In this document: positions 8,580-27,700 of the stretch, piece after piece
How the letters are laid out: every line of letters begins with the position of its first letter
How positions within the stretch are numbered: position 1 is the first letter of the stretch
Source: a virus
IMG/VR virus record: IMGVR_UViG_3300017992_000057
Span: 1 to 32,248 of that record
Length of the DNA stretch: 32,248 nt
Direction: 5' to 3' (one strand)
Made by a program: the position numbers and the translations under genes
The notes under the pieces: generated by a model
What the model was told of the DNA's origin: nothing
The model's input: the letters and a program-made list of their open reading frames with translations, nothing else
Databases searched by the model: none

Positions 8580-8900
8580 ATGGTGAACGCGGAAACGAAA
8601 AGGCGCGCGGGCAGGGTGCCCGGCGGCAACGGCGCAGGGTACAATCGGGCTGAGCCCACCTGGGGCTCGCTTTCGTGCGCTGTGGGGGAGCGCCCGCGCG
8701 GCCGGCAAACGGTGCCGGCCGTTCGCGGTCCTGGGCCTTCCCTGGCGCCCTGTCGCTGCGCCTGCGGCGTTCTGCTGTGGCGCCCGCTGCCCTTGCCCAT
8801 CCTGGGCCGGAAACGTGTCGCTGCGGTGCCCTGGGGCCGCCCCGAAGTTTTTCCGTTTTTTCTGTTTTTGGGGTTGAAAACGCAAGAAAAGGGAATATAA
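8580..8900 (+). CDS. doubtful ORF running into promoter P4
   Basis: 106 codons from ATG 8580, with the full leader GGCGGCAAGGAGGTGAGCG, the best sign that something is translated here. After about 30 residues (MVNAETKRRAGRVPGGNGAG...) the sequence becomes Pro/Arg/Cys-rich like the non-coding region at the left end. The last residues (FPFFLFLGLKTQEKGI) are read from P4 itself. I suspect a real start with a decayed or frame-disrupted body. If it is not a gene, 8519-8950 holds only this leader and P4. Confidence 0.35.
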   Translation: MVNAETKRRAGRVPGGNGAGYNRAEPTWGSLSCAVGERPRGRQTVPAVRGPGPSLAPCRCACGVLLWRPLPLPILGRKRVAAVPWGRPEVFPFFLFLGLKTQEKGI

Positions 8901-8901
8901 T
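8874..8901 (+). promoter_or_regulatory. promoter P4
   Basis: -35 TTGAAA (8874-8879), 16-bp spacer, perfect -10 TATAAT (8896-8901). T-rich upstream tract (CGTTTTTTCTGTTTTTGGGG). It lacks the CGGG before the -10 seen in P1-P3, so it may be controlled differently. It drives the 310-residue protein at 8951. Confidence 0.85.
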
Positions 8902-8950
8902 ACAGAATAGAAAGGCAAGGGAAACAAGGCGGCAGCGAAAGGAGGACACG

Positions 8951-9883
8951 ATGGAAACGATCAGACGCGGGAGCAAACGGTACAAGGAGGCCATCCTCGG
9001 CGCGACTGGCCTCGTGCACTACTGCCTCGACAACGGGTTCCAGGGGCAGCAGGTGCCGGCGGGCGAGGGCGCCCTGGAAGCGTTCCTGAACACGGCGAAC
9101 ACCCTCAAGGCGAAACTGCGGCGGCTGGACGACGGCCGCTACCGGCTGACGTTCAACTCGAACTCCTGGCTCGAGTTCCGGCTGCCCGGCGAGAACACGC
9201 CGGCGCCGGCGCCCGAACCGGGCAAGGCCGCGGCCGCGACGACCGCCGGGTTCGGCGCCGCGGTGCGGGCGCAGATCGCGGACGCCACGGGCCGGGACGC
9301 CGCCACGGTGAACGCCACGCCGGCGATGGTGTGGACGCGGGAGGACGTGGTGGCGCTGATGGCGCGCAGCGACGACGCGGTGTGCGCGGCCCTCGTGGGG
9401 ATGTTCAACCGGCAGACCAGCGAGGAACAGCAGCGCGAGGCCACGGTGGACCTCAACGGCGTGGGGTTCAGCGGGCAGGACGCCGATTTCATGAGCAGCC
9501 TCGCGAAGGGCGTGCTCAAGTGGGGGCACCTGACCGCGCGGCAACTGCCGCACGCGCGCCGGAACCTCAAGAAGTACGCGGGGCAGATCGCGGAGATCGC
9601 CAACGCGGAAGGCTGGACCGAGAACGTGAAACCGCCGCAGCCGGAACAGCGCCCGGCCCGCCGGGACGACGGGAGAGGCCGCGCCGCCGGCAACGGCAAC
9701 GCGAACGGCAACGGGAACGGCAACGGCCGGAACCGCTGCCGGCGCTGCAACGGGACGGGAACGTTCACCGGGCGCAACGGCCGCGCCCTGGGACCCTGTT
9801 TCACCTGCAACGGCAGGGGCTACCTCACCGCGGCGGATTTCGCGCGGATGCGGGAGCGCCGGCCCGCGCAGGCGAACGGGTAG
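8951..9883 (+). CDS. early protein with C-terminal DnaJ-type zinc finger
   Basis: 310 residues, the largest early gene, from ATG 8951 (AAAGGAGG upstream). Three parts are visible. Residues 1-85 have a helix plus strands. Residues about 100-235 are helical, including SSLAKGVLKWGHLTARQL and RNLKKYAGQIAEIA; the 'LT-x-x-Q...A...L-KY' pattern is common in phage replication- or recombination-associated proteins. After a Gly/Asn repeat linker come two CxxCxGxG knuckles (CRRCNGTG, CFTCNGRG), the zinc-binding pattern of the DnaJ central domain. A nucleic-acid-binding replication accessory is a reasonable inference, not shown. Confidence 0.8.
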   Translation: METIRRGSKRYKEAILGATGLVHYCLDNGFQGQQVPAGEGALEAFLNTANTLKAKLRRLDDGRYRLTFNSNSWLEFRLPGENTPAPAPEPGKAAAATTAGFGAAVRAQIADATGRDAATVNATPAMVWTREDVVALMARSDDAVCAALVGMFNRQTSEEQQREATVDLNGVGFSGQDADFMSSLAKGVLKWGHLTARQLPHARRNLKKYAGQIAEIANAEGWTENVKPPQPEQRPARRDDGRGRAAGNGNANGNGNGNGRNRCRRCNGTGTFTGRNGRALGPCFTCNGRGYLTAADFARMRERRPAQANG

Positions 9884-13688: not shown

Positions 13689-14123
13689 ATGGCGATAGAC
13701 GCTTTGCGCGAATTGACCGAGTACCGGGTGAAAGCCGAGGAGGACGGTTGGCTGCCGGAATTCGAGGCTATCATCAAGGTTCTCATCGCAGCGCAGGAAC
13801 GCGCGGAACAGCGCCTCGCAGTGCTGGGCGCCATCGGACGTCTTGTGGGTTGGGAAACCCCGACGCCCGAGCAACTGTCGCACCTGCCGCAAGCGGTGGC
13901 GTCCCTGAAGGCGCGTGCGGATCGCGCGGGGTCGCCTGGGACGGAATTCCTGCACGGTTGGGTCGCAGGCTACCTCGAAGCCATCGGCGCCGCAACGGGT
14001 GCCGAATTCTCTTCCGCGGAAGGAGCCGTACGGCACCTCGCCGGCCTGTACCGCGAGGCGCTGAAGTGTGAGAAACGAAACGCGGAGGCCAAGGGCGAGG
14101 AAGGCGCAACGGAAGACGCATGA
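13689..14123 (+). CDS. helical protein before terminase; candidate small terminase
   Basis: 144 residues from ATG 13689 (GGAAGGAG upstream). It is entirely helical (TEYRVKAEEDGWLPEFEAII, VLIAAQERAEQRLAVLG) with a highly charged C-terminus. Its stop overlaps the TerL start (ATGA at 14120). Position and size fit a small terminase subunit, which would recognise the packaging site. I see no clear helix-turn-helix, so the call rests on context. A copy of AAGTGTGAGAAAC (14064-14076) encodes part of KCEKR near its end. Confidence 0.6.
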   Translation: MAIDALRELTEYRVKAEEDGWLPEFEAIIKVLIAAQERAEQRLAVLGAIGRLVGWETPTPEQLSHLPQAVASLKARADRAGSPGTEFLHGWVAGYLEAIGAATGAEFSSAEGAVRHLAGLYREALKCEKRNAEAKGEEGATEDA

Positions 14124-15463
14124 ATTGGCTCGAACTCGTAAAACACGAGCGCATTTTGGAAGGGGGCAAGCCGTACGGCGACCTCGCTGAATCCTGGCAA
14201 CTTGAACTCGACCGCGCGCTGTTCAATGAACCGCGCGTCTACATCGAACTTCCCCGCGGGCACGACAAGACGGGGCGTCTTGCGGCGCACGCCTTGTGCT
14301 GGCTCCTCGAGGGCGAGGGGAAGTTGGGTTACGCTGCCGGCGTTGACAAGGACAATGCGCGGCTGTTTCGCACAGAAATCAAGGGGCAGGTGGACCGGAA
14401 CCCGCGGGCGTTCGGCGACATCGAGATTCAAAACTATGTCGTGCAGAACACGCGCAACGGGAACCGCATCGAAATCCTTTCCTCCGATGCGCCCTCAAGT
14501 ATCGGCCTGAAGTTCAACCTGCTGCTCATCAATGATTTCGTTGATTGGAAAAGCCGTGACTTTTTCGAGGTGCTCATGTCTGCTACGGGCAAACTGCCCG
14601 GCGTGCAGATATGGGTCGAATCAAACGCGGGCAGGACGAAAAACGATTACAAGTGGAACTTCCGCGAATACGCGCGCAAATCCTCCAGGTGGTTTTTCAA
14701 CACGAGCCTGAAGTGGCTGGCCGGCTGGACTGACGATGAATGGTTCGAGGAACAGAAGGCGATCCTTTCCCCGTCGCAATACAGGCGCCTCATCGGAAAC
14801 GAATGGATCGGGGACGAGGACGTGTTTCTCACTCCCGATCAGGTGCGCTCCATCACGAACCCGTACCTCAAACCGTGCCCGAACCGTCCGGAAGATGTCG
14901 ACCTCGTTGCGGTGGCGACCGACCTCGGAATTTCAAAAGCGGCCGCTGCCGTTGCGGCGGTGGGCCGCGTGAAAGGGTACGAACCTGCGCGGCTGCTCGA
15001 CCTGCGCGTGTTTCCGGGGTCCAAGATCGCGCCGGTACAGATCAGCGACGTGGAAGAGGCCATCGAGGACATGCGCGCGAATTACGAAGCGCACGGCGTG
15101 GTTTTGGACCCGTGGAACATGAGGAAAACGATTCAGGACCGCGAGGCCGTGTGGCCGATTGAAGAATTCAACTTCTCGCCGGCAAACATCATGCGCCTGA
15201 CTTCCGACGTGTTTCGTCGCGTGGTGAGCCGGCAGTTGGAAATATATCCCGACGCCGGGCCTGCAATTCAGAACCGCGAACAGTGGTCGCTTCAAAAGGA
15301 ATTGCAGACCGCGGTCATTCGTCAGATGTCCTACGGCGAACGAATTGACCATCGGGCTTCCGGATATACGGACCGCATAATAGCGGTCGGGATGGCGCTG
15401 TGGTGGCTGGGAAAGGAACGGCTGCCCAAGGCGCCGAGGACGTTCAAGGTTCGCGTCGTGTGA
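14120..15463 (+). CDS. terL: terminase large subunit
   Basis: 447 residues. The DNA packaging motor: an N-terminal ATPase and a C-terminal RNase H-like nuclease that cuts the genome. Walker A-like PRGHDKT is at residues 45-51 (P45, G47, K50, T51), a deviant loop like that of other terminases. Walker B is LLLIND at 134-139. Nuclease acidic residues are seen as TDLG (D268), VLDPW (D330) and YTDR (D418), each after a hydrophobic strand. Start ATG 14120 overlaps the upstream stop. The portal gene starts 7 bases after its stop. Confident family call; length is on the short side but complete. Confidence 0.92.
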   Translation: MNWLELVKHERILEGGKPYGDLAESWQLELDRALFNEPRVYIELPRGHDKTGRLAAHALCWLLEGEGKLGYAAGVDKDNARLFRTEIKGQVDRNPRAFGDIEIQNYVVQNTRNGNRIEILSSDAPSSIGLKFNLLLINDFVDWKSRDFFEVLMSATGKLPGVQIWVESNAGRTKNDYKWNFREYARKSSRWFFNTSLKWLAGWTDDEWFEEQKAILSPSQYRRLIGNEWIGDEDVFLTPDQVRSITNPYLKPCPNRPEDVDLVAVATDLGISKAAAAVAAVGRVKGYEPARLLDLRVFPGSKIAPVQISDVEEAIEDMRANYEAHGVVLDPWNMRKTIQDREAVWPIEEFNFSPANIMRLTSDVFRRVVSRQLEIYPDAGPAIQNREQWSLQKELQTAVIRQMSYGERIDHRASGYTDRIIAVGMALWWLGKERLPKAPRTFKVRVV

Positions 15464-15470
15464 GGTTACG

Positions 15471-17378
15471 ATGGCGGAAAGTGTGAGAAACGCCGCGCAT
15501 CCGTTCGCGGAGGCAGCGACGTCGATGATCAAAGATGCGGCCCGCGGCCGATGCGTTCTCATCGAAACCGCGCCGGGCGCACGCGGCCGGATGCCGTTGG
15601 ACAAGGCAAAGGCCGCGTCCAAGGAACAGGCCGGCGAAACCTGGGAAGACGCGATGGAACGCGGGCGTCGCGGTATCACAAAGTTTCAGGAGGAATCACA
15701 GGCGCTCGAGGACAAGCGCGCCGGGTATAGCGGCGGCGACGTAATCGAGCCGCCCTTGCCGTTGGCCGCACTCGTCGAAACGTTCGAGCAGTCCAACTCG
15801 CTGCGGCAGAACGTGGACGCGATGGGAACGAACATCGACGGCTTCGGGTTCACGATTGCCTTCTCCCTTGACCTGGACGACAAGGAGGCCATCGAATTCG
15901 TCACCGACCTGCTGGCCGAGGAAGGCAAGGGCGAACCGGCCGAGGAAGCGGTGGCGGAACGCATCAAGGAACTGCGCAAGGAGGCCGCGCGCGAACGACG
16001 GAAGGCGCGAAACTTCTTCAACTATTGCGCGGACCCAAGTTTCATCGAACACCGCAGAATGTCCCGCGAAGACCTCGAGGTGATGGGAAATTGGACATGG
16101 GAAGTGCTGCGGGACAAGGCGGGCAACCTCGCGCGGTTCGTGCTGCTGCCGTTCTACACGATGCGTCTGACGAAACTGGGCGACCCCGTGGAAGTGGAAG
16201 TCAAGCGCAAGGTGGACCCCATCACCTTCAAAACGTTCAAGGAATCCCGGCGCTTCCGGCGGTTCGTGCAGATCGTGGGACAGAAGAAGGTGTGGTTCAA
16301 GGAATACGGCGACCCGCGCGTCATGAGCCGCAAGACGGGAACCTACTACAAAACGCTCGAGGAACTGCAAGCGAAAGCAAAGGAGGATCCGGAAGACGGT
16401 GAAGCCTCCGAAGTGATGCACTACCGCATCCGTGCCCTGCGCGGCCCGTACGGGCTGCCGCGGTACGTGGGCAACCTGCTATCCGTTCGCGGTTCGAGGC
16501 TTTCGGAGGAGGTGAATTACTTTTACTTCCAGAACAAAGCCATCCCGCCGATGATCATTTTCGTCGAGAACGGAACGCTCGCCGAGGCGGCGGTGGACCG
16601 GCTGACGGATTTCATGCAAGAGGTGAAGGGCGATACTCAAAAGTTCTGGAAAATCGCGATCCTTGAGGGCGAGTCGCAGGAGGACGCGCGTAAGCGTGGC
16701 GTGTCATGGACCGGGCAACCGCGCTTCAAGGTGGAACGCCTCACGGCGGAACAGTTGAAGGACGCGCTTTTCCAAGAATACGACGAACGGAACCGCGACA
16801 AGGTGGGCGAGAGTTTTCGCCTGCCGCGGCTGCTGCGGGGAGACACGCGCGATTTCAACCGGGCCACCGCGGAGGTGGCGAAGGCGTTGGCCGAGGAGCA
16901 GGTGTTCCAGCCGGAACGCGACAGGTTCGACGCCATGATCAATCGGACCGTGATGCCCGACCTTGGGTTCAGGTTCGTCGAATTCCGAAGCCGTGCGCCG
17001 GTTACGCGCGACCCGCTTTCGCTGATGGAACTCGTGCGCGAACTCGTGAAGGTTGGCGTTCTGACTCCGGGTGAGGGGCGTGAATTGGCGGGCGATATTT
17101 TCAACCGCGATTTCCCGCGCCTTGACGAAGACTGGACGAAGAAGCCGCTGCGCGTTGTGCTGGGCGAGCAGAAGATCGCAGCGCAGAACGGGCAAACGCT
17201 CGAGCAGTCAAAGGTCGCGGAACTGCGCGGAACCCTGGGGCTGGGCGAACCTGGGACGCCCGTCGACGTTCCGAAAGTCGCCAAGCGTTTGCTCGAGGTG
17301 CGGGGTGTGCTCTCCGAACTCATCAAGGGCGGGCCTGCCGGACACGTGTACGGTGCCCTCCTTGATCGAAACGATTGA
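15471..17378 (+). CDS. portal protein (PBSX-like)
   Basis: 635 residues from ATG 15471. Portal proteins form the dodecameric ring through which DNA enters and leaves the head. The diagnostic segment GPYGLPRYVGNLLSVRGSRL, then YFYFQNKAIPPMIIFVENG, matches PBSX/HK97-type portals. QSNSLRQNVDAMGTNIDGFG near residue 105 is the usual N-terminal portal signature. It is longer than many portals because of a charged N-terminus and a helical C-terminus (crown/barrel region). A copy of AAGTGTGAGAAAC at 15479-15491 encodes ESVRNA right after the start. Its 3' end overlaps the next gene. Confidence 0.9.
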   Translation: MAESVRNAAHPFAEAATSMIKDAARGRCVLIETAPGARGRMPLDKAKAASKEQAGETWEDAMERGRRGITKFQEESQALEDKRAGYSGGDVIEPPLPLAALVETFEQSNSLRQNVDAMGTNIDGFGFTIAFSLDLDDKEAIEFVTDLLAEEGKGEPAEEAVAERIKELRKEAARERRKARNFFNYCADPSFIEHRRMSREDLEVMGNWTWEVLRDKAGNLARFVLLPFYTMRLTKLGDPVEVEVKRKVDPITFKTFKESRRFRRFVQIVGQKKVWFKEYGDPRVMSRKTGTYYKTLEELQAKAKEDPEDGEASEVMHYRIRALRGPYGLPRYVGNLLSVRGSRLSEEVNYFYFQNKAIPPMIIFVENGTLAEAAVDRLTDFMQEVKGDTQKFWKIAILEGESQEDARKRGVSWTGQPRFKVERLTAEQLKDALFQEYDERNRDKVGESFRLPRLLRGDTRDFNRATAEVAKALAEEQVFQPERDRFDAMINRTVMPDLGFRFVEFRSRAPVTRDPLSLMELVRELVKVGVLTPGEGRELAGDIFNRDFPRLDEDWTKKPLRVVLGEQKIAAQNGQTLEQSKVAELRGTLGLGEPGTPVDVPKVAKRLLEVRGVLSELIKGGPAGHVYGALLDRND

Positions 17379-19479
17379 CGCCGTCACCGCAGCGGCCTAT
17401 GACAACTTCGACCCGCTGCCCGCCTGGGCGGCGCTGGAGGAGTTTCTCACACTTCCAAGCCGTTCGACGGCCAAGGCGAAGAGTCGGTGGGATCTCACAA
17501 CGGAGGAGGGGTTCGCGCAGGCCGTCATCGAGGTCGCCCTTTCCATGCGGTCCGCAGAGGCGAAGGAACTGCGCGCCTTTGACGCTCGCTTTCGTCGCGC
17601 CCTGGATAAAAACTGGCCGGGCCTTTCCGCGGCTGAACGCCGCGAGGCGATGGCCGATGTGAGAAACCTGACGCGTACGCTGGGCGGAAAGATCACGGGC
17701 GCCGAGGCCGCGGTTCTCAAATCGTGGGAAGACCCGCTGCTGCAAGCGGGCAAGGTTTCCGCGATAGACCGTTACGGGCTGGGCGTGGCGCCAACGTTCA
17801 CGCGGGCGGATACGGTGGCCTCGGCTGGGCTGCGGCAGAACATGGTCCACTTCATCCGCGACCGCGAGGGGAGAATTGCCGAGGGGTTTTCGGAACAGGC
17901 GCGGGGCATCGTTGCGCGTGGGCTGGAGGATGGCCTGGGGCGCGATGACATTTCCCTTGCCCTGCGCGCAACGTTCGGCGATATGCGGAAGCCGAGTTAC
18001 TGGGACTTCTGCTCCAATCATTTCGTCGCACGGGAGCGCGCGGTTTCCGCGCTTACCTCATACCAGACGGCGAAGATTGTGAAGTACATGATCGTCGCCA
18101 TGCTGGACGAGAAAACAACGGACACGTGTCGGTTTCTCGACGGCAAGATCTTCGACGTGCAGCAGTCAATCGAAATGCTGGGCAAGGCGCAGGCGGAAAG
18201 CGCAGAGGATCCCAACCTCATCAAAGAGTTCAACCCCTTCATCAACACGTACCAAACCGAACGCGGTCCGGAACTGCGAATGATGCAGCCGGGAGGCGGA
18301 TCGGTGCGCGTGGCTTCGATTGAACGTTCGGGCGTTGGCCGCGTTGATGCGAAGGGCACGTACACGAACGCGATGAAGGATGGCGACTTGCAGAAGCAGG
18401 GCGTGGGGCCGCCGCCTTATCATCAGTTTTGCCGCACGAACATCGTCCCCGAAACCGAGGAGCGCGTTGAACCCGTGACGGTTGCGCCGCCGGTTACGGC
18501 GCCCATCGCTGCGCCGGCCAAGGTCCCGCGGCGTCCGAAGGATTTCGAGGGGTTGGCCGCGTTCGCTGAATCAATGGAGTTCCGGCCGGGCTGGATGGAC
18601 GCCGCGAGCAAGGTGAAAGGCGCCCCGCGTGGCGCCTTGCAGAAGGCGGCCGCGATGCAGGAAGGCTTCCGTGCGCGTGGCGAAAAAGTCATCGGCGACC
18701 TGACCGTGCGGTGGAAGGAACTGGCCGCGAGCGGAATGGAACCGGCGGCAAGACGTGCGGCCGAGCGCGAAGTGATGTCCGAGATGGCCTCGCGGTTTCA
18801 GGCTACCTCGCGGCGCGTCACAGGGCGCACCGCTGCGCAGCACGAGGGCTTCAGGGAAACGTTCCTTCGGCGAATGGATGACAAACTGTTCCAGGGGAAC
18901 CTTCTTGATTCCACAACGCGGCCCAGCGTTGCGGACCGAGCCGCGCTTGGGCGTATCTATAACGCATGGGGGCCGCTGGCCGACAAGGTGGAGGGACACC
19001 TTCAGCGCGTGGAAAAGATCGCAGCGCGCGCGCACTACAAACACGCGAACGGATATATCCGCTATTTCGGAACGAACGCGCTGACGCATGAATTCGGGCA
19101 CGGCGCAGAGACGCTCGCGTCAACGCGTAGCGGCGCAACGCTACCGGAGAAGGACGGGTTCTGGACGCGGTTTCGTGATTCGCGCAAGGCCAAGGGCGAG
19201 CGGATCCGTTCCCTTGGGCGAGACACGGGCGTCAACTATGACGCACACGAAAAGTATGTCCGCGACAAGTTCGAGGGGCTCGACCCCTATACGAGCAAGG
19301 TGTACTCGAAAAACGGAAATTCCGAGTTCGTTTCCATGCTGAGCGAACGTCTCCTTCAGGACCCGGCGGCGCTGGCCGCGGGTTACGATTGGGACCTTGC
19401 GAAGATCATCGACCTGCAACCTGATATCCTTTCATCGTTTTTCGGCTGGGCCGAATCTGCTGTCCTGGGGGCGTGGTGA
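17353..19479 (+). CDS. minor head protein (Mu F/SPP1 gp7-like) fused to a zincin-like metallopeptidase
   Basis: 708 residues from GTG 17353 (TTG 17362 is the alternative; neither has a clear ribosome site, and both overlap the portal gene). Residues about 180-365 match the head-morphogenesis family: SYQTAKIVKYM, then TTDTCRFLDGKIF near 255-267, and PPPYHQFCRTNIVP near 350. The C-terminal half is different: HEFGH at 579-583 within a helix, followed about 75 residues later by NSEFVSMLSERL. HExxH plus a downstream helix glutamate is the gluzincin pattern. So the virion-head domain carries a likely zinc protease. It could cut head proteins, peptidoglycan or host targets; which is unknown. Confidence 0.85.
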   Translation: MPSLIETIDAVTAAAYDNFDPLPAWAALEEFLTLPSRSTAKAKSRWDLTTEEGFAQAVIEVALSMRSAEAKELRAFDARFRRALDKNWPGLSAAERREAMADVRNLTRTLGGKITGAEAAVLKSWEDPLLQAGKVSAIDRYGLGVAPTFTRADTVASAGLRQNMVHFIRDREGRIAEGFSEQARGIVARGLEDGLGRDDISLALRATFGDMRKPSYWDFCSNHFVARERAVSALTSYQTAKIVKYMIVAMLDEKTTDTCRFLDGKIFDVQQSIEMLGKAQAESAEDPNLIKEFNPFINTYQTERGPELRMMQPGGGSVRVASIERSGVGRVDAKGTYTNAMKDGDLQKQGVGPPPYHQFCRTNIVPETEERVEPVTVAPPVTAPIAAPAKVPRRPKDFEGLAAFAESMEFRPGWMDAASKVKGAPRGALQKAAAMQEGFRARGEKVIGDLTVRWKELAASGMEPAARRAAEREVMSEMASRFQATSRRVTGRTAAQHEGFRETFLRRMDDKLFQGNLLDSTTRPSVADRAALGRIYNAWGPLADKVEGHLQRVEKIAARAHYKHANGYIRYFGTNALTHEFGHGAETLASTRSGATLPEKDGFWTRFRDSRKAKGERIRSLGRDTGVNYDAHEKYVRDKFEGLDPYTSKVYSKNGNSEFVSMLSERLLQDPAALAAGYDWDLAKIIDLQPDILSSFFGWAESAVLGAW

Positions 19480-19817
19480 GCGAAGCGCGTTTCATTCTGC
19501 GAAAAGAAAACAGGCGAGCGGAGTTTTCGTTCACGTGGCCGGACGATGCGAAGCCTTGGGACGGCAGTGGAACCTTGAAACTGCGCGAAGGCGCGCGTAG
19601 CGCGTTGACGGAAATGGAGGAAATCGCGAAAGAACTCGAAAAGGAAGATCGGGCGATTTCAGTTGGGCCGTTCCCACCGATCCCGCCGCCATTCATGGGA
19701 AAGATCGACGCCATCTCTCGCCTTTCATCGTGGGCGGGTTGGGAGTGGAGTTGGGTTGGCGAACCGCCGGCCGTCATGGAAGAACGGTACGAACTGGACC
19801 CCGATACGGTATCCTGA
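19476..19817 (+). CDS. small hypothetical protein in the head module
   Basis: 113 residues from GTG 19476, which overlaps the preceding stop (GTGA); GTG 19473 is also in frame. The protein begins VSEARFILRKENRRAEFSF and has a strand pair (FTWPDDAKPWDG). A charged helix follows (SALTEMEEIAKELEKEDRAI), then a Pro-rich loop (FPPIPPPFMG) and Trp-rich end (WAGWEWSWVGEP). No family is recognised. Only 7 bases separate its stop from the start of the giant polyprotein, so they are probably co-translated. Confidence 0.75.
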   Translation: MSEARFILRKENRRAEFSFTWPDDAKPWDGSGTLKLREGARSALTEMEEIAKELEKEDRAISVGPFPPIPPPFMGKIDAISRLSSWAGWEWSWVGEPPAVMEERYELDPDTVS

Positions 19818-19824
19818 GGAAGAT

Positions 19825-22800
19825 ATGCCTGATCTCACAACGCAAGACCTCGAGACCCAGGGCGGCGCGAAACCGTTGTCGGTTGGCGTCGACCCGAAAC
19901 TGCCCAAGGACGGCATCGTGTTGACGCCGTCGTTCGCGGCCAAGGTCGCGCGGGGCGAAAAGACAATCGTCATCAAGACGCGCCCGTTCAAGATCGGCGG
20001 CCGGCCGCTGTTCCTCATCGCCGGCGACAAGGCGCTGGGGATTCTCACACTTTCAACGCCGCGGAAAATCACCCTCAAGGAGTTCGCAGCCCTCGAGACC
20101 GAACACGGCATCAGCGCCGCGCAGCGGAAGAAGTTTTGGGCCGGGAAGCGGGAGTTCTTCGCGTACAAGGTGGTCAAGGTTTCACTGTTCGCGAAGCCGT
20201 TGGAAATCGAACAGCCGGCCGGGCAGCAGATGCTCGTCCGGGACGTGAAACTGGCCGGCGACGTTGTGCTGCTGTTTGACATCGCGAAAGCGGAGGGCGC
20301 GGCGGTGGAGGAAATGCGCGCAGCCCTGCGCAACCTCGCGCCGGTGATGGACCGCTGGGCGAAGAGTACGCTGCGGTTTCTCACAAAACCGGCCGAACTC
20401 GTCAGCATGGTTCGGGGCGCGCCGGCCGTGGTGCGGCGGCTGTTGCGGCTCGTGGGCGGCGGTTCGCCAGCGGCAACGGGCGAGGGCACGGTTTCGGAGG
20501 GCATCAAGGCGGTGGTGCGCCTTGGACGGCGCGTTGTGGGCGCCCTGGAGGCCGCTGACGGCAAGATGGCGGCACAGCAGGTATCAGACGCCCTCGCTGA
20601 ACTGGAAAGCGTTGACGACGCGATTCCGCGGCTGACCGGGCTGGACGAGGAGGCGAAGGGGTTCGTGCAGGAATTCGGCATCCCGAACCCGGCAGCGCAT
20701 GGCCTCGAGAAGAAAAAGTATCCCGGCCTCAAGATGCCCTCCCCAGGGTTCAACGTTGCACGCCTCAAGGCCGGCGGTTCCTCCGGCCTGTTCTCCCGCA
20801 TCGCGCGGGCCGGCCGTGTGGGCGTGGAGCAGGTGCTCGTCAATGAACTGAACAAACCCGGCGACGAACCTTTCGCCTACGGAATCGTCACGCTGCAAGA
20901 GGGGCGCAGGTTCGACGGGATCGGCACGGTTCCGAAAGCCGTACTCGCCGGCGTCGACGAGTTCACGCGGCGCGAATTCCAGCGCGAGAAGGTCATCTGG
21001 TACCATCCCTTCACGCTAATCACCGCCTTCGACAAACCCATCCGCATGTCGGCGCCCGTGCCTGGGCGCCGTTACGCTTCCGACGTTGATGTGAGCGGCG
21101 GCAAGGTGGAACCCGCGACCAAGGACGAGAACCGGCCGCCGAGCCCGTTCGCTGTGACCGCTGACGGGTACGTTCGGGAGGTGGTGGAATTCGACAAACT
21201 CGCCGACGACGCCCGGCAGATTTTCGCCGTCGTGCTGCCGGCCGAGCGTGCGCCGTGGCGCATCATCGAACTGCGCGCGGATTCCGCTGACGCAGCGTAC
21301 GAGGAAGCCGGCGCGCACGTGGCGGAACGGCAGGCGCAGGCCGCCGCGTTGGCGCTGCGCGTGGGTCTTTCGCATGGCGGGGAGCCCGTGTTCGAGGTGG
21401 TGGGCCTCCTGAACGCGCTCGATCCGGTGCAGATGGCACAGCAGGCCATCGCCATCGCCACGTCGCCGGCCCTTGCCGAAATGGACGACGATGAACTGGC
21501 GCGCCTGCTGGAACTGCTCCGCGGGTTCCATGAGATCGCCTTCGCCGGTAAGGAGGCCACGACGTACGAGGGCGTTTCCCGCGAGGACGTGGTGAACGCC
21601 TACCTCTTTGTCGTGCGCGCGCTTCGCGATGGCGGCGCGGTGGTGGAACCCAAGGCGGAAATCGACAGCGAGGCGAAGGACCTGGACGCCGATGCGTTCA
21701 AGGCGTGCCGGCCTGGGCAGGGGAGGAAACCGCGGCGCAAGGCGCGCGGGGAGGGGATGGGCGTGGGCGGTGAGGCCCAGCAGGACGGCGGCGTTTCCGA
21801 GTGCGTTTGCACGGCGTGCGGCGTGCGCATCGAACACGAACGCGGCAAGCCGTGCGCCGACGTCGCGTGCCCTGAGTGTGGCGCGGCGATGGCGCCTGTG
21901 ACGGAGAAGGGCGTCGCCTGTCTGTGCCCGTGGTGCGGCTACGAGGGCGAGTCCGAGGAAGGGCGTTGTCCAGAGTGCGGCCGTTCCGTTTTGATCGAGG
22001 GCAAGGCCGCGTCCGAACAGGCGGGGAAACTTGCGCCGACGCATCCCTCGGGCGAACAGGGAGGCCGTCGGATTTGCCTTTACGAAGTGCTCGAAAAGGT
22101 CAAGCCGTTCCGGTGGCGGCAGGACGCCATCTCCATCGTTGGCGGCATCGCGAACCGTGGCTTCACGGACAACGATATCGACATTCTCATCAAGGGGCCG
22201 CTGGACGAGAACACGCGGCACGTTCTGAAGTTCCGCCTTGGCCGGATGCTGGGGCCGGAACTCTCGCAGCGGGTGCAGTTCCTCGACGACGAATACGGCG
22301 GCCCGTTCACGAATAACGTCAACCTCGGGCACCTGTGCTTCGAGACACTTCCCGAATTCGCCATCAAGGAAATGCGGGAAGAGTGTGAGAAACAAGATGA
22401 CCCGATGCAGGATATGCCGGCCAAGCCTGGGCCGCGCGAAGCGGTCGTGCAGTTGCACTTCCGCGGCCGTTCCGTCCATCTCGATTTCCGGATTTCCATG
22501 AACGGCCACCTCGTCGGCTGGACCATCGCCGTGCAGAAACCGGGCGCCATCAAGGAACCCGTGACCACGGTCGCGCAGGCGAGGAAGATCGCTGCGGGTT
22601 ACAAGGCCGACGAGGGCAACAGATACCTCAAGGGGTTCGTGGCGCCCGGCGGGCTGTTCGCAACGCCGAAGATGCGACAGCCGAAAGTGTGGCTCAACGT
22701 TTCCGACGAAACGTTCGAGCCGGGCAGCGTTGGCGCCACGCGAAACTTCCCGGCCGTGTGGCTCGAAATAGACCGGCCGAAGGTGGAATTCGGGCAGCAG

Positions 22801-25218
22801 TCCCCGCGGTTCCACGAATACTTCATCACGGATTCCAAACTGCGGGACGGCATCTGGTTTTTCCGGCAACTGGTCGGCGAGACGCCTCCCGGTACGGTTC
22901 GCGAGGAAGAGGAAGGAAAAGTGACGCCGGCCGGGGAAACGTTCTGGAAGTTCGCGGCCGCGAAGTCCATGTTGCCTTCCGTGCTGAAACCTCGCACCGC
23001 CGAACGCGGCACGATGCCGCCTGCCGGTTGGTCATGGATTCCGCAAAGCCTCGAGCGTGACGTGCCGCAGGAGTTCCGGTACTGGGAAAAGCGGAGCCAC
23101 GCGAAGCAAACGCGCGACGCGCTGGAGGAAGCGGACATTTTCACGGACTCGACCGTGCGCATTGTGGACGGCAAGTTCCGCCTCGTGCGGACGAAGATGT
23201 TCATCGCCGGCGAACAGGGCGAACCCGTGGAGGTCCATCGCGTGCGCTCGAAGGCGTGCGTTGCGAAGCGCGTTGTGGAGTACGCGCTTTCCCGGCAGTC
23301 ATTCCGCGGGCCTGTTCAGGTGCGCGAGGGGTTCTCCCGCGTCTTCTGGTGGCTGGCGTTCGACGAACCTGGGGCCGCAGGCGTTCGCGCCTGGAAACTG
23401 CTGACCGATCCTGCGTCGGGCGAGAAGCGGATTTCCGCGGTGAAGGCGCCTTCCGCGTTCACGCGCGACAAGGCGCTGCTGAGCCTCAAGGGCGATCAGG
23501 CGCCGGGTTCCCGTTTCAACGACACGAAAGATACGCCGAGCAGCGTGTACGCGGTGGGAACCGGCAAGGCCGATGTCGAAGAGGAGGCGGCGGGTTTCGT
23601 GCGGGTTCGTTTCACGAGCGGCCCGCTGAAGGGGACGCGCGTGCTGGCCGCCGAGGAACGTGGCTCGAACCTTTGGGAATTCTCACACGAGGACGAGGCG
23701 GTGCCGCCAAAGAGTGAGAAACTTGGCGCGGTTCCCACGCGAGGCGGCGTTCAAGTTTGGGACCCCGATAAAAAGAGCGCCGACGTGGACCGTTCGCAAC
23801 TGCGTCCGCTTGCGCTGTTCGCGCCCATGAAACCGCGCAAGGGATACTTCGATCCCGAGGAATTCCTGCGCGATTGGCCGACGCCCGAATACGTGAAAAG
23901 CGGGCTCGATGTGGAGCCCAAGTGGAACGGGTTGAGGGCCATTCTGGAATCCGACGGCGACAAGGTTCTCATCTACTTCGAGGATTCGCAGGATGACCGT
24001 TCGCACGTGCTGCCCGGCGTGGCGCGCGAATTGGCGGCCCTGGGAAAGAAGGTCGGCCCGTTTATTCTCGACGCAGAGTTGCTCGATTTTGACGGAGATG
24101 AGGCGCTGCCGCGGCGCACGCTTTCGCGGTTCACGGGGCCGGTTGATCCTCAAGAGGATTCGGGCGTGCGGTTCAAGGCGCACCGCCTCATCTACGGCAA
24201 CGGAAAGAACTGGACCGACGTGCCGCGCAAGGAGGCGCGCCCGGCACTGGAAGCGTTCGTCAAGAAGGCTGCGGCGAAGCACATCGAACTCACGCCGGCG
24301 CGAACCGCGCGAAGCGTGGAACAGTTGCCGGAACTCATCAAGTGGGCCGCGGGGTTTTCCGGTAGCGAAGGAGCGATGTTCAAACTGGGCGAATCGACCT
24401 ACTCGCTGGGCCGGTTTACGAGTTCGTGGTCGAAGTTGAAACTGCCGCGCACCGTGTACGCGCGCGTTTACGAAGTCATAAAGAAAAAGCCGTCGCCCCA
24501 GCAAAAGGCGCCGTCGCGAACGTTCGTCTATCAAGCGGCTGTCGGACCCGTGGACGAAAAAGACGTTGACAGGTACCGGGCCACCGTTAGAATCGGAAAT
24601 CGAAATTACGTACCTATCGGCAAAACGTTTGCGACGAACGTTCAAGCGAATGTCGGCGACGTTTTGCAGGTGGAGGTCACGGAGTTGCTCATAGACCTCG
24701 CAGGCGAAAAACAGACGGTGCACTGGTTCACGCCGGTCGTAGAGGCGCGCGTTCAACGCCGCCCGAATACCGTCCCCGAGGTGATTCGCCTTGCGTTCGA
24801 GCACGAAGTGAAACGTTCGGTCGAAAAGATCCTTTCCCGCGAAATTCCCATCTTCAAGGCTGCCGAGGAGCGCATCGTTTACGGCATCGTGCTCGAGCCG
24901 GAAACGAAAGACGCGCAGAATGACATTTACTCCGCGGAGGAAATCCGGCAGGCTGCACATCGGTACATGGAAGAATTCCGGCACCTGGGGCTCATGCACC
25001 GGTACCGGATGGACGGGCGAATTCGGATCCTCGAATCCTACATCGCACCTTGTGACATGGAGGTCGAGGGTCAGCCCGTGAAAGCGGGAACGTGGCTGAT
25101 GGTTGCGCGGGTGATTGACGATGGCCTGTGGGCCGCTGTAAAATCAGGAAAGTTGACCGGGTTCTCAATCGGCGGCAGCGCCATCAGGGAGAAGGAAAAG
25201 AAACCGGAGGCCGCGTAA
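19825..25218 (+). CDS. giant polyprotein: ASCH-like x2, Zn ribbons, nucleotidyltransferase, phosphoesterase-like, DNA ligase, XkdF prohead protease
   Basis: 1797 residues from ATG 19825 (GAGGAAG upstream). Domains in order: ASCH-like (31-125, with RGEKTI); a related copy (about 350-410, GIVTL...FDKPI); zinc ribbons (about 659-740, four to five CxxC knuckles). Pol-beta-type nucleotidyltransferase has GG 773-774 and D784/D786. The LigD 3'-phosphoesterase-like part has H878, H885, D887, R889 and GWTI. The ATP-dependent DNA ligase has EPKWNGLR with K1366, DAE at 1416-1418, SEGAMFK 1514-1520 and SWSKLK 1534-1539, then an OB-like domain. The C-terminal XkdF (S78-type) protease starts at 1683, with candidate His1725 and Ser1781 (GFSIGG). 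The frame has no internal stop. XkdF position fits head assembly; self-cleavage and packaging of the repair enzymes are inference. Confidence 0.88.
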   Translation: MPDLTTQDLETQGGAKPLSVGVDPKLPKDGIVLTPSFAAKVARGEKTIVIKTRPFKIGGRPLFLIAGDKALGILTLSTPRKITLKEFAALETEHGISAAQRKKFWAGKREFFAYKVVKVSLFAKPLEIEQPAGQQMLVRDVKLAGDVVLLFDIAKAEGAAVEEMRAALRNLAPVMDRWAKSTLRFLTKPAELVSMVRGAPAVVRRLLRLVGGGSPAATGEGTVSEGIKAVVRLGRRVVGALEAADGKMAAQQVSDALAELESVDDAIPRLTGLDEEAKGFVQEFGIPNPAAHGLEKKKYPGLKMPSPGFNVARLKAGGSSGLFSRIARAGRVGVEQVLVNELNKPGDEPFAYGIVTLQEGRRFDGIGTVPKAVLAGVDEFTRREFQREKVIWYHPFTLITAFDKPIRMSAPVPGRRYASDVDVSGGKVEPATKDENRPPSPFAVTADGYVREVVEFDKLADDARQIFAVVLPAERAPWRIIELRADSADAAYEEAGAHVAERQAQAAALALRVGLSHGGEPVFEVVGLLNALDPVQMAQQAIAIATSPALAEMDDDELARLLELLRGFHEIAFAGKEATTYEGVSREDVVNAYLFVVRALRDGGAVVEPKAEIDSEAKDLDADAFKACRPGQGRKPRRKARGEGMGVGGEAQQDGGVSECVCTACGVRIEHERGKPCADVACPECGAAMAPVTEKGVACLCPWCGYEGESEEGRCPECGRSVLIEGKAASEQAGKLAPTHPSGEQGGRRICLYEVLEKVKPFRWRQDAISIVGGIANRGFTDNDIDILIKGPLDENTRHVLKFRLGRMLGPELSQRVQFLDDEYGGPFTNNVNLGHLCFETLPEFAIKEMREECEKQDDPMQDMPAKPGPREAVVQLHFRGRSVHLDFRISMNGHLVGWTIAVQKPGAIKEPVTTVAQARKIAAGYKADEGNRYLKGFVAPGGLFATPKMRQPKVWLNVSDETFEPGSVGATRNFPAVWLEIDRPKVEFGQQSPRFHEYFITDSKLRDGIWFFRQLVGETPPGTVREEEEGKVTPAGETFWKFAAAKSMLPSVLKPRTAERGTMPPAGWSWIPQSLERDVPQEFRYWEKRSHAKQTRDALEEADIFTDSTVRIVDGKFRLVRTKMFIAGEQGEPVEVHRVRSKACVAKRVVEYALSRQSFRGPVQVREGFSRVFWWLAFDEPGAAGVRAWKLLTDPASGEKRISAVKAPSAFTRDKALLSLKGDQAPGSRFNDTKDTPSSVYAVGTGKADVEEEAAGFVRVRFTSGPLKGTRVLAAEERGSNLWEFSHEDEAVPPKSEKLGAVPTRGGVQVWDPDKKSADVDRSQLRPLALFAPMKPRKGYFDPEEFLRDWPTPEYVKSGLDVEPKWNGLRAILESDGDKVLIYFEDSQDDRSHVLPGVARELAALGKKVGPFILDAELLDFDGDEALPRRTLSRFTGPVDPQEDSGVRFKAHRLIYGNGKNWTDVPRKEARPALEAFVKKAAAKHIELTPARTARSVEQLPELIKWAAGFSGSEGAMFKLGESTYSLGRFTSSWSKLKLPRTVYARVYEVIKKKPSPQQKAPSRTFVYQAAVGPVDEKDVDRYRATVRIGNRNYVPIGKTFATNVQANVGDVLQVEVTELLIDLAGEKQTVHWFTPVVEARVQRRPNTVPEVIRLAFEHEVKRSVEKILSREIPIFKAAEERIVYGIVLEPETKDAQNDIYSAEEIRQAAHRYMEEFRHLGLMHRYRMDGRIRILESYIAPCDMEVEGQPVKAGTWLMVARVIDDGLWAAVKSGKLTGFSIGGSAIREKEKKPEAA

Positions 25219-26761: not shown

Positions 26762-27700
26762 ATGGGAGTTTCCAACCGTTCCATCCTGGCGAAGGCCGAT
26801 CTCAAGATCAACGACCTTCTGACCGACGGCGGCATCCTCCCCGAAGCGGCCGCGAAGCGGTTCCTTCAGGTGGCCGTGAAGAACGCCGTCATCCTGCCCG
26901 TGGCGACGGTGGTTCCGATGAAGAGCCGCGAACAGCGCATCGACCTGTTCCGGTTCCAGAACCGGATCCTCCGGCCGGGGCAGGAGGCCACCGCGCTGCC
27001 GGAGGCCGACCGTTCCAAGCCGAACCTCTACAAGGCGACGCTCAGCGTCAAATTGTTCAAGGGGGAAATTCGGCTGAACAAGGAAGTGCTCGAGGACAAC
27101 ATCGAGAGCGAGAACTTCCAGGACTCCATCATGGACGCCGCCGGCAAGGCCGTGGCGCGGGACATCGACGAACTCGTGGCCAACGGGGACACCGCGAGCG
27201 CCGACCCGTTTCTGGCGCAACTGGACGGCATCCGGAAGCAGGCCACGTCCAACCTCGTGAACGCCGCCGGCAGCACCACGACCAAGACGATCCTCAAGGC
27301 GAGCGTGAAGGCCATGCCCACGGAGCACCTGCGGGATCGCCGGGCCATGCGGTTCCTCACCTCGTTCGACAGCGAAACCGACTATCGGGATTCGCTGGCC
27401 GACCGGGCGACGGCCGTGGGCGACCGGTTCCTGCTGGAGGGCGTGCCCGCCACGTACTCCGGCATCCCGATGCTGGGCGTGCCGGTGTTCCCCGAAAACC
27501 TGGGGCCGTTCACGAACTACACCGAGATGCTCCTGCTCGATCCCAAGAACATCAACGTCGGCTTCTGGCGACAGATCGAGTGGGAAACCGACAAGGACAT
27601 CGTGGCCGGCGAACTGATCATCGTGGTCTCGCTGCGCATGGACGTCAAGTTCGCGTTCGAGCCCGCGGTGGTCAAGGTGCAGAACCTCAAGGTCGGCTAA
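26762..27700 (+). CDS. major capsid protein (HK97 fold)
   Basis: 312 residues from ATG 26762 (AAGGAGTGAG upstream). The sequence reads as an HK97-fold capsid subunit: an N-terminal arm, then VAVKNAVILPVATVVPMKSR, the E-loop region (RFQNRILRPGQEATALPEAD), a spine helix (DSIMDAAGKAVARDIDELVA) and a C-terminal strand block (FWRQIEWETDKDIVAGELII). Codons are almost wholly G/C-ending, consistent with high expression. There is no obvious long pro-segment, in line with a separate scaffold gene just upstream. A 12-G tract and a terminator-like hairpin follow. Confidence 0.88.
   Translation: MGVSNRSILAKADLKINDLLTDGGILPEAAAKRFLQVAVKNAVILPVATVVPMKSREQRIDLFRFQNRILRPGQEATALPEADRSKPNLYKATLSVKLFKGEIRLNKEVLEDNIESENFQDSIMDAAGKAVARDIDELVANGDTASADPFLAQLDGIRKQATSNLVNAAGSTTTKTILKASVKAMPTEHLRDRRAMRFLTSFDSETDYRDSLADRATAVGDRFLLEGVPATYSGIPMLGVPVFPENLGPFTNYTEMLLLDPKNINVGFWRQIEWETDKDIVAGELIIVVSLRMDVKFAFEPAVVKVQNLKVG

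Follow-up and report, generated by a model that had tools for sequence, protein, structure and literature searches.

Enzymes carried on phage head proteins have published precedents, and a model for their delivery has been put forward with them (PMC5576092, PMC5512222). Fusions of MuF proteins to metallopeptidases were reported in 2017, 20% of 191 putative MuF toxins bearing a metallopeptidase domain (PMC5576092), and the zincin-like MPTase domains of polyvalent proteins have been divided into 12 published clades (PMC5512222). Here we compare these systems with a gene found in a 32,248-nt stretch of viral DNA (IMG/VR record IMGVR_UViG_3300017992_000057, positions 1 to 32,248; the whole stretch is referred to below as the window), the predicted product of which joins a MuF-like minor head domain to a C-terminal zincin module.

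The fusion gene (17353..19479, + strand) is an open frame of 708 aa with a GTG start, the choice of start codon being uncertain: the frame stays open upstream to 17071, the GTG at 17353 gives a 26-base overlap with the portal gene, and no strong ribosome-binding site was seen. Genes for the terminase large subunit (14120..15463, +; PHROG match) and the portal protein (15471..17378, +; Pfam and PHROG matches) precede it on the same strand, the fusion gene following directly after portal. An ORF of 114 aa (19473..19817, +), which possibly encodes an immunity or head protein, runs over the end of the fusion gene; no relatives of this ORF were detectable among the fetched loci. Further downstream lie an XkdF protease domain (PF14550; 24859..25185, +; E = 1.1e-29), located at the C-terminus of a large ORF, and the gene of a probable major head protein (26762..27700, +; phrog_1623 and phrog_10). 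The preliminary description had anticipated proteases of two different classes in this head module, and the presence of XkdF beside the predicted metalloprotease agrees with that view.

The ORF ending in XkdF is itself very large (19663–25218, +; approximately 1,800–1,850 aa, with an ATG at about 19822 as the likely start). Besides the C-terminal XkdF domain (PF14550), it contains an ATP-dependent DNA ligase domain (PF01068, E = 1.4e-13) and a stretch resembling a zinc ribbon, and possibly represents a polyvalent head-module protein. Upstream of the head genes, a 402-aa ORF (8675–9883, +) matches phrogs 21015 and 4046, which are of unknown function.

Profile comparisons identified the N-terminal half of the fusion protein computationally as a MuF/SPP1 gp7-like minor head protein, as had been proposed from inspection of the sequence. 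The domain spans approximately aa 46–373 (17488..18471, +). In the PHROG profile comparison the strongest evidence came from phrog_13868, matched at aa 46–364 with E = 2.4e-42, followed by phrog_115 (E = 8.3e-12), while several minor-head and head-morphogenesis PHROGs also matched this half. TIGR01641 (SPP1 gp7) scored 39.6 bits, 0.05 short of its cut-off of 39.65, and PF04233 scored 26.1 bits, under the gathering score of 29.6. A Pro-rich linker (approximately aa 367–400; 18451..18552, +) was recognised in the sequence at the end of this domain, with proline accounting for 20% of the 40 residues behind the MuF match.

Whole-protein searches of the viral_contigs, phages, plasmids and genome_contigs collections returned no relatives, and neither did searches of viral_contigs and phages with the C-terminal part alone. 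Relatives were reached only via XkdF, an HExxH-motif DNA scan and family alignments. A first motif scan (HEFGHGxE) brought up few true zincins, most of its hits being chance reading frames. Scanning the DNA of viral contigs for HEFGHAxE led to proteins whose similarity to the C-terminal part covers HExxH as well as the later Glu, with BLASTP E values of 9.9e-9 for L095, 0.002 for L118 and 0.03 for L122; in the last two, MuF precedes the zincin-like domain. An alignment of these three proteins yielded further members and, in one scan, 214 viral loci, of which 80 were kept.

The zincin module occupies approximately aa 444–708 (18682..19476, +), as delimited by the family profile, the alignment and an AlphaFold2 model. 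Taken by itself, HExxH is weak evidence, arising in 0.92% of shuffles of the window protein, but the evidence from the family lifts the predicted domain far above chance. A profile built from 67 relatives, with the window protein excluded, gave that protein a score of 55.0 bits (E = 5.9e-13 at Z = 1e6); among 2,000 shuffles of the same protein the highest score was 7.2 bits, and no real match was obtained among the other reading frames of the window.

Conservation within the family followed the gluzincin layout that the preliminary description had read from HEFGH and a downstream NSEF. The latter corresponds to aa 656–659, so that the downstream glutamate is E658, and H579, E580, H583 and E658 were identical in 68 out of 68 aligned sequences. 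The only other invariant columns were Y646 and Y651, with R559, E586, E633, D638, K649 and S661 being near-invariant. HEFGH (aa 579–583; 19087..19101, +) would contain two predicted zinc ligands, H579 and H583, and a predicted base, E580; E658 (19324..19326, +) is the putative third ligand, and Y651 (19303..19305, +), located 7 residues ahead of it, is the putative catalytic Tyr. In both lethal factor and PPEP-1, the catalytic Tyr sits seven residues before the Glu ligand, the same spacing as from Y651 to E658. More than half of the aligned sequences (38/68) fitted no HExxH-type search pattern and were found only with a second, HExxH-free one; because all of them nevertheless carry HExxH, conservation of this motif is not an artefact of the search.

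In most members HExxH lies approximately 100–120 residues from the end of the protein, the domain forming the extreme C-terminus. The window protein departs from the consensus at S648 and L663 (Gly in nearly all others) and at Q689 (Asp in nearly all others). Pfam was empty for its C-terminal domain, including for ATLF (PF07737), no NCBIfam model matched, and phrog_33618 was approached only at E = 0.24–0.45. Judged by sequence comparison, the C-terminal half is a member of a real, unnamed zincin family; given the lack of a Pfam ATLF match, the domain of the window protein would not be filed as M34/ATLF on the same grounds.

Structure prediction, which had been suggested as a check on zinc geometry, points to a zincin-like fold with an HExxH helix and a Glu helix, the nearest solved folds apparently being those of lethal factor and PPEP. 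The 68-sequence alignment served as AlphaFold2 input, an earlier 8-sequence model (pLDDT 52.5) having been dropped. The resulting model of the module had a pLDDT of 74, rising to near 90 in the core around HExxH, and a pTM of 0.68. Its elements are ordered as helix, three strands, HExxH helix and Glu helix, which is also the order described for the zincin core (PMC5512222). A Foldseek search against PDB gave no significant match (best E = 0.59), and comparison of a sequence profile with PDB produced nine weak matches, with a zincin in none of them. In a structural second look at the Foldseek-ranked PDB chains, rows 1–32 were all lethal factor or PPEP/Zmp1 with Z scores of 7.8–5.3, the next being 4.5, although Z scores below 8 can be unspecific and the quality of the AlphaFold2 model was only moderate. 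As Foldseek itself gave no significant match, the likeness to M34 rests on this second look together with the residue pattern. We regard the evidence for lethal factor/PPEP (MEROPS M34) as the nearest predicted fold as good, though short of conclusive.

The nearest MuF relatives found (L002, L004 and L005, reached via XkdF) range in length from 362 to about 430 aa. Two of the three stop where the MuF part of the window protein stops and the third continues for approximately 60 residues further; HExxH is absent from their MuF proteins, and their loci showed no separate gene with this motif. Loss of HExxH in homologues, named in the preliminary description as a finding that would count against its reading, was not seen in homologues of the domain, these relatives lacking the whole domain and not just the motif. 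Since their short MuF proteins lack the module, head assembly in these three viruses does not depend on it, and XkdF is present in them as it is in the window. A general assembly protease is therefore an unlikely role for a module that can be absent while the head genes remain, and XkdF can do this job.

Absent from the nearest MuF relatives, the C-terminal module is yet carried by other MuF proteins. A MuF profile built here matched 48 of the 77 sampled family members, and Pfam, applied to 62 members, found PF04233 in 30, minor capsid 2 in two and portal in one. Isolated phages with the module on a MuF or minor-head protein included Lactococcus phage 62503, Flavobacterium phage vB_FspM_pippi8-1, Bacillus phage vB_BpsS-36 and Geobacillus phage GBK1, and the module-bearing genes of isolated phages adjoin portal and terminase. 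These computational comparisons mark the predicted fusion as accessory and modular, with the module riding on many different head proteins.

Variant arrangements were also observed. In another viral contig, a head protein with MuF and HExxH (L097:2300-4867) contains an intein-like segment (PF14890, aa 292–548) directly after MuF. Two neighbouring genes of Planktothrix phage PaV-LD (L134:2190-4435), ORF080R and ORF081R, both match the zincin module and form an apparent tandem pair, ORF081R being annotated as a virion structural protein. MuF/minor-capsid proteins with HEFGH domains apparently belonging to different subfamilies were present in viral contigs L100, L093, L116, L105 and L048, and some of these domains are nearer to Pfam ATLF (E = 5.6e-5 for L093). 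Metallopeptidase tails may have been acquired several times by head proteins.

We propose that a MuF (SPP1 gp7-type) minor head protein would here anchor a C-terminal zinc metalloprotease of lethal-factor/PPEP-like fold. Zinc would be held by H579, H583 and E658, while E580 would activate water and Y651 would support the transition state. Inside the capsid, a few copies would be placed at the portal by the MuF part; the protease would leave with the DNA at ejection, and early in infection it may cleave a host protein or one from a rival element; packaging, ejection and target are modelled here on published MuF proteins (PMC5576092, PMC5512222). From sequence conservation and the predicted model, the C-terminal domain is very probably a protease. 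The role of ejected effector, argued by analogy, stands at about even chances, and the explanation as a whole, in which a MuF-anchored zinc protease is carried in the virion and ejected with the DNA, appears somewhat more probable than its negation. A broader proposal is more tentative, and we give it rather less than even weight: a widespread, unnamed lethal-factor/PPEP-like family, situated on portal-adjacent head proteins of phages of many hosts, would be ejected and, as infection begins, would cleave a specific protein belonging to the host or to an anti-phage defence.

The main rival, which we consider unlikely, is self-processing: the domain would cut its own chain, for instance at the Pro-rich linker, or would act on other head proteins, either while the head is being assembled or once ejection has taken place, leaving the host untouched. 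Autoproteolysis has been proposed for the zincin domains of phage polyvalent proteins, and DdrB of P1 is processed before packaging (PMC5512222). The linker of the window protein is Pro-rich and the PPEP fold relatives are Pro-Pro endopeptidases; however, such a linker is not general across the zincin-module family. Moreover, the protease forms the C-terminal end of the window protein, leaving no further cargo domain to release, and a head protease is already supplied by XkdF, with relatives in existence that have XkdF and lack the module.

Improbable to a further degree is a MuF polymorphic toxin with dedicated immunity, in which the protease would kill or inhibit infected competitors and the 114-aa ORF would protect the lysogen. 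Small downstream ORFs have been tied to MuF toxins (PMC5576092), and the gene is followed by a small ORF in the window, as it is in each of the six isolated phages inspected. However, only one pair of these small ORFs is related (those of Bacillus vB_BpsS-36 and Geobacillus GBK1), the short MuF genes in L002 and L004 likewise have a small ORF behind them, and no recognisable immunity gene was detected.

We assign a very low probability to an inactive zincin fold kept for structure only, as a head-assembly or DNA-binding part: the window member is divergent, with Gly to Ser at 648 and Gly to Leu at 663, but the catalytic-type residues are invariant in 68/68 sequences, its own included, and the short MuF relatives manage without the module. 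Action on the cell wall during entry, a target raised in the preliminary description, gained no support and is the least probable reading by far, as nothing speaks for it beyond the occurrence of a peptidase in a virion module, whereas the fold neighbours are protein endopeptidases and not peptidoglycan hydrolases, and a MuF-anchored domain would sit inside the head.

Returning to the preferred reading of a MuF-anchored protease ejected with the DNA, enzymatic tails on MuF proteins may constitute a little-tested route for the delivery of protein together with phage DNA. The family is found again in isolated phages whose hosts are harmless (Lactococcus, Flavobacterium and Geobacillus), so that the ejection and the targets of head-linked metalloproteases are experimentally approachable.

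The window protein resembles the MuF polymorphic toxins of temperate phages in that MuF is followed by a C-terminal enzymatic extension, and differs from them in that its extension fits no Pfam or NCBIfam model (PMC5576092). With the zincin-like MPTase domains of polyvalent proteins it shares the order of core elements and a location on phage virion proteins, but polyvalent proteins are giant and multidomain, whereas in the window protein MuF carries just one enzymatic domain (PMC5512222). Anthrax lethal factor and PPEP (MEROPS M34) provided the best structural matches and likewise combine HExxH with a later Glu. Unlike in these proteins, the HExxH-to-Glu stretch in the window protein is longer (79 residues) and a secretion signal is absent, with MuF in its place; identity in the structural alignments was only 7–14%, and there was no sequence match in PDB. 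Other counterparts are phrog_33618, 20397, 8561 and 19443 (minor head protein), matched within the module by seven of the eight family members tested; phrog_19443 corresponds to the minor head protein of Lactococcus phage 62503, which carries the module. Metallopeptidase tails on MuF proteins were known already; what the window adds is a divergent member of a predicted subfamily that Pfam does not model, though it is represented in several PHROGs.
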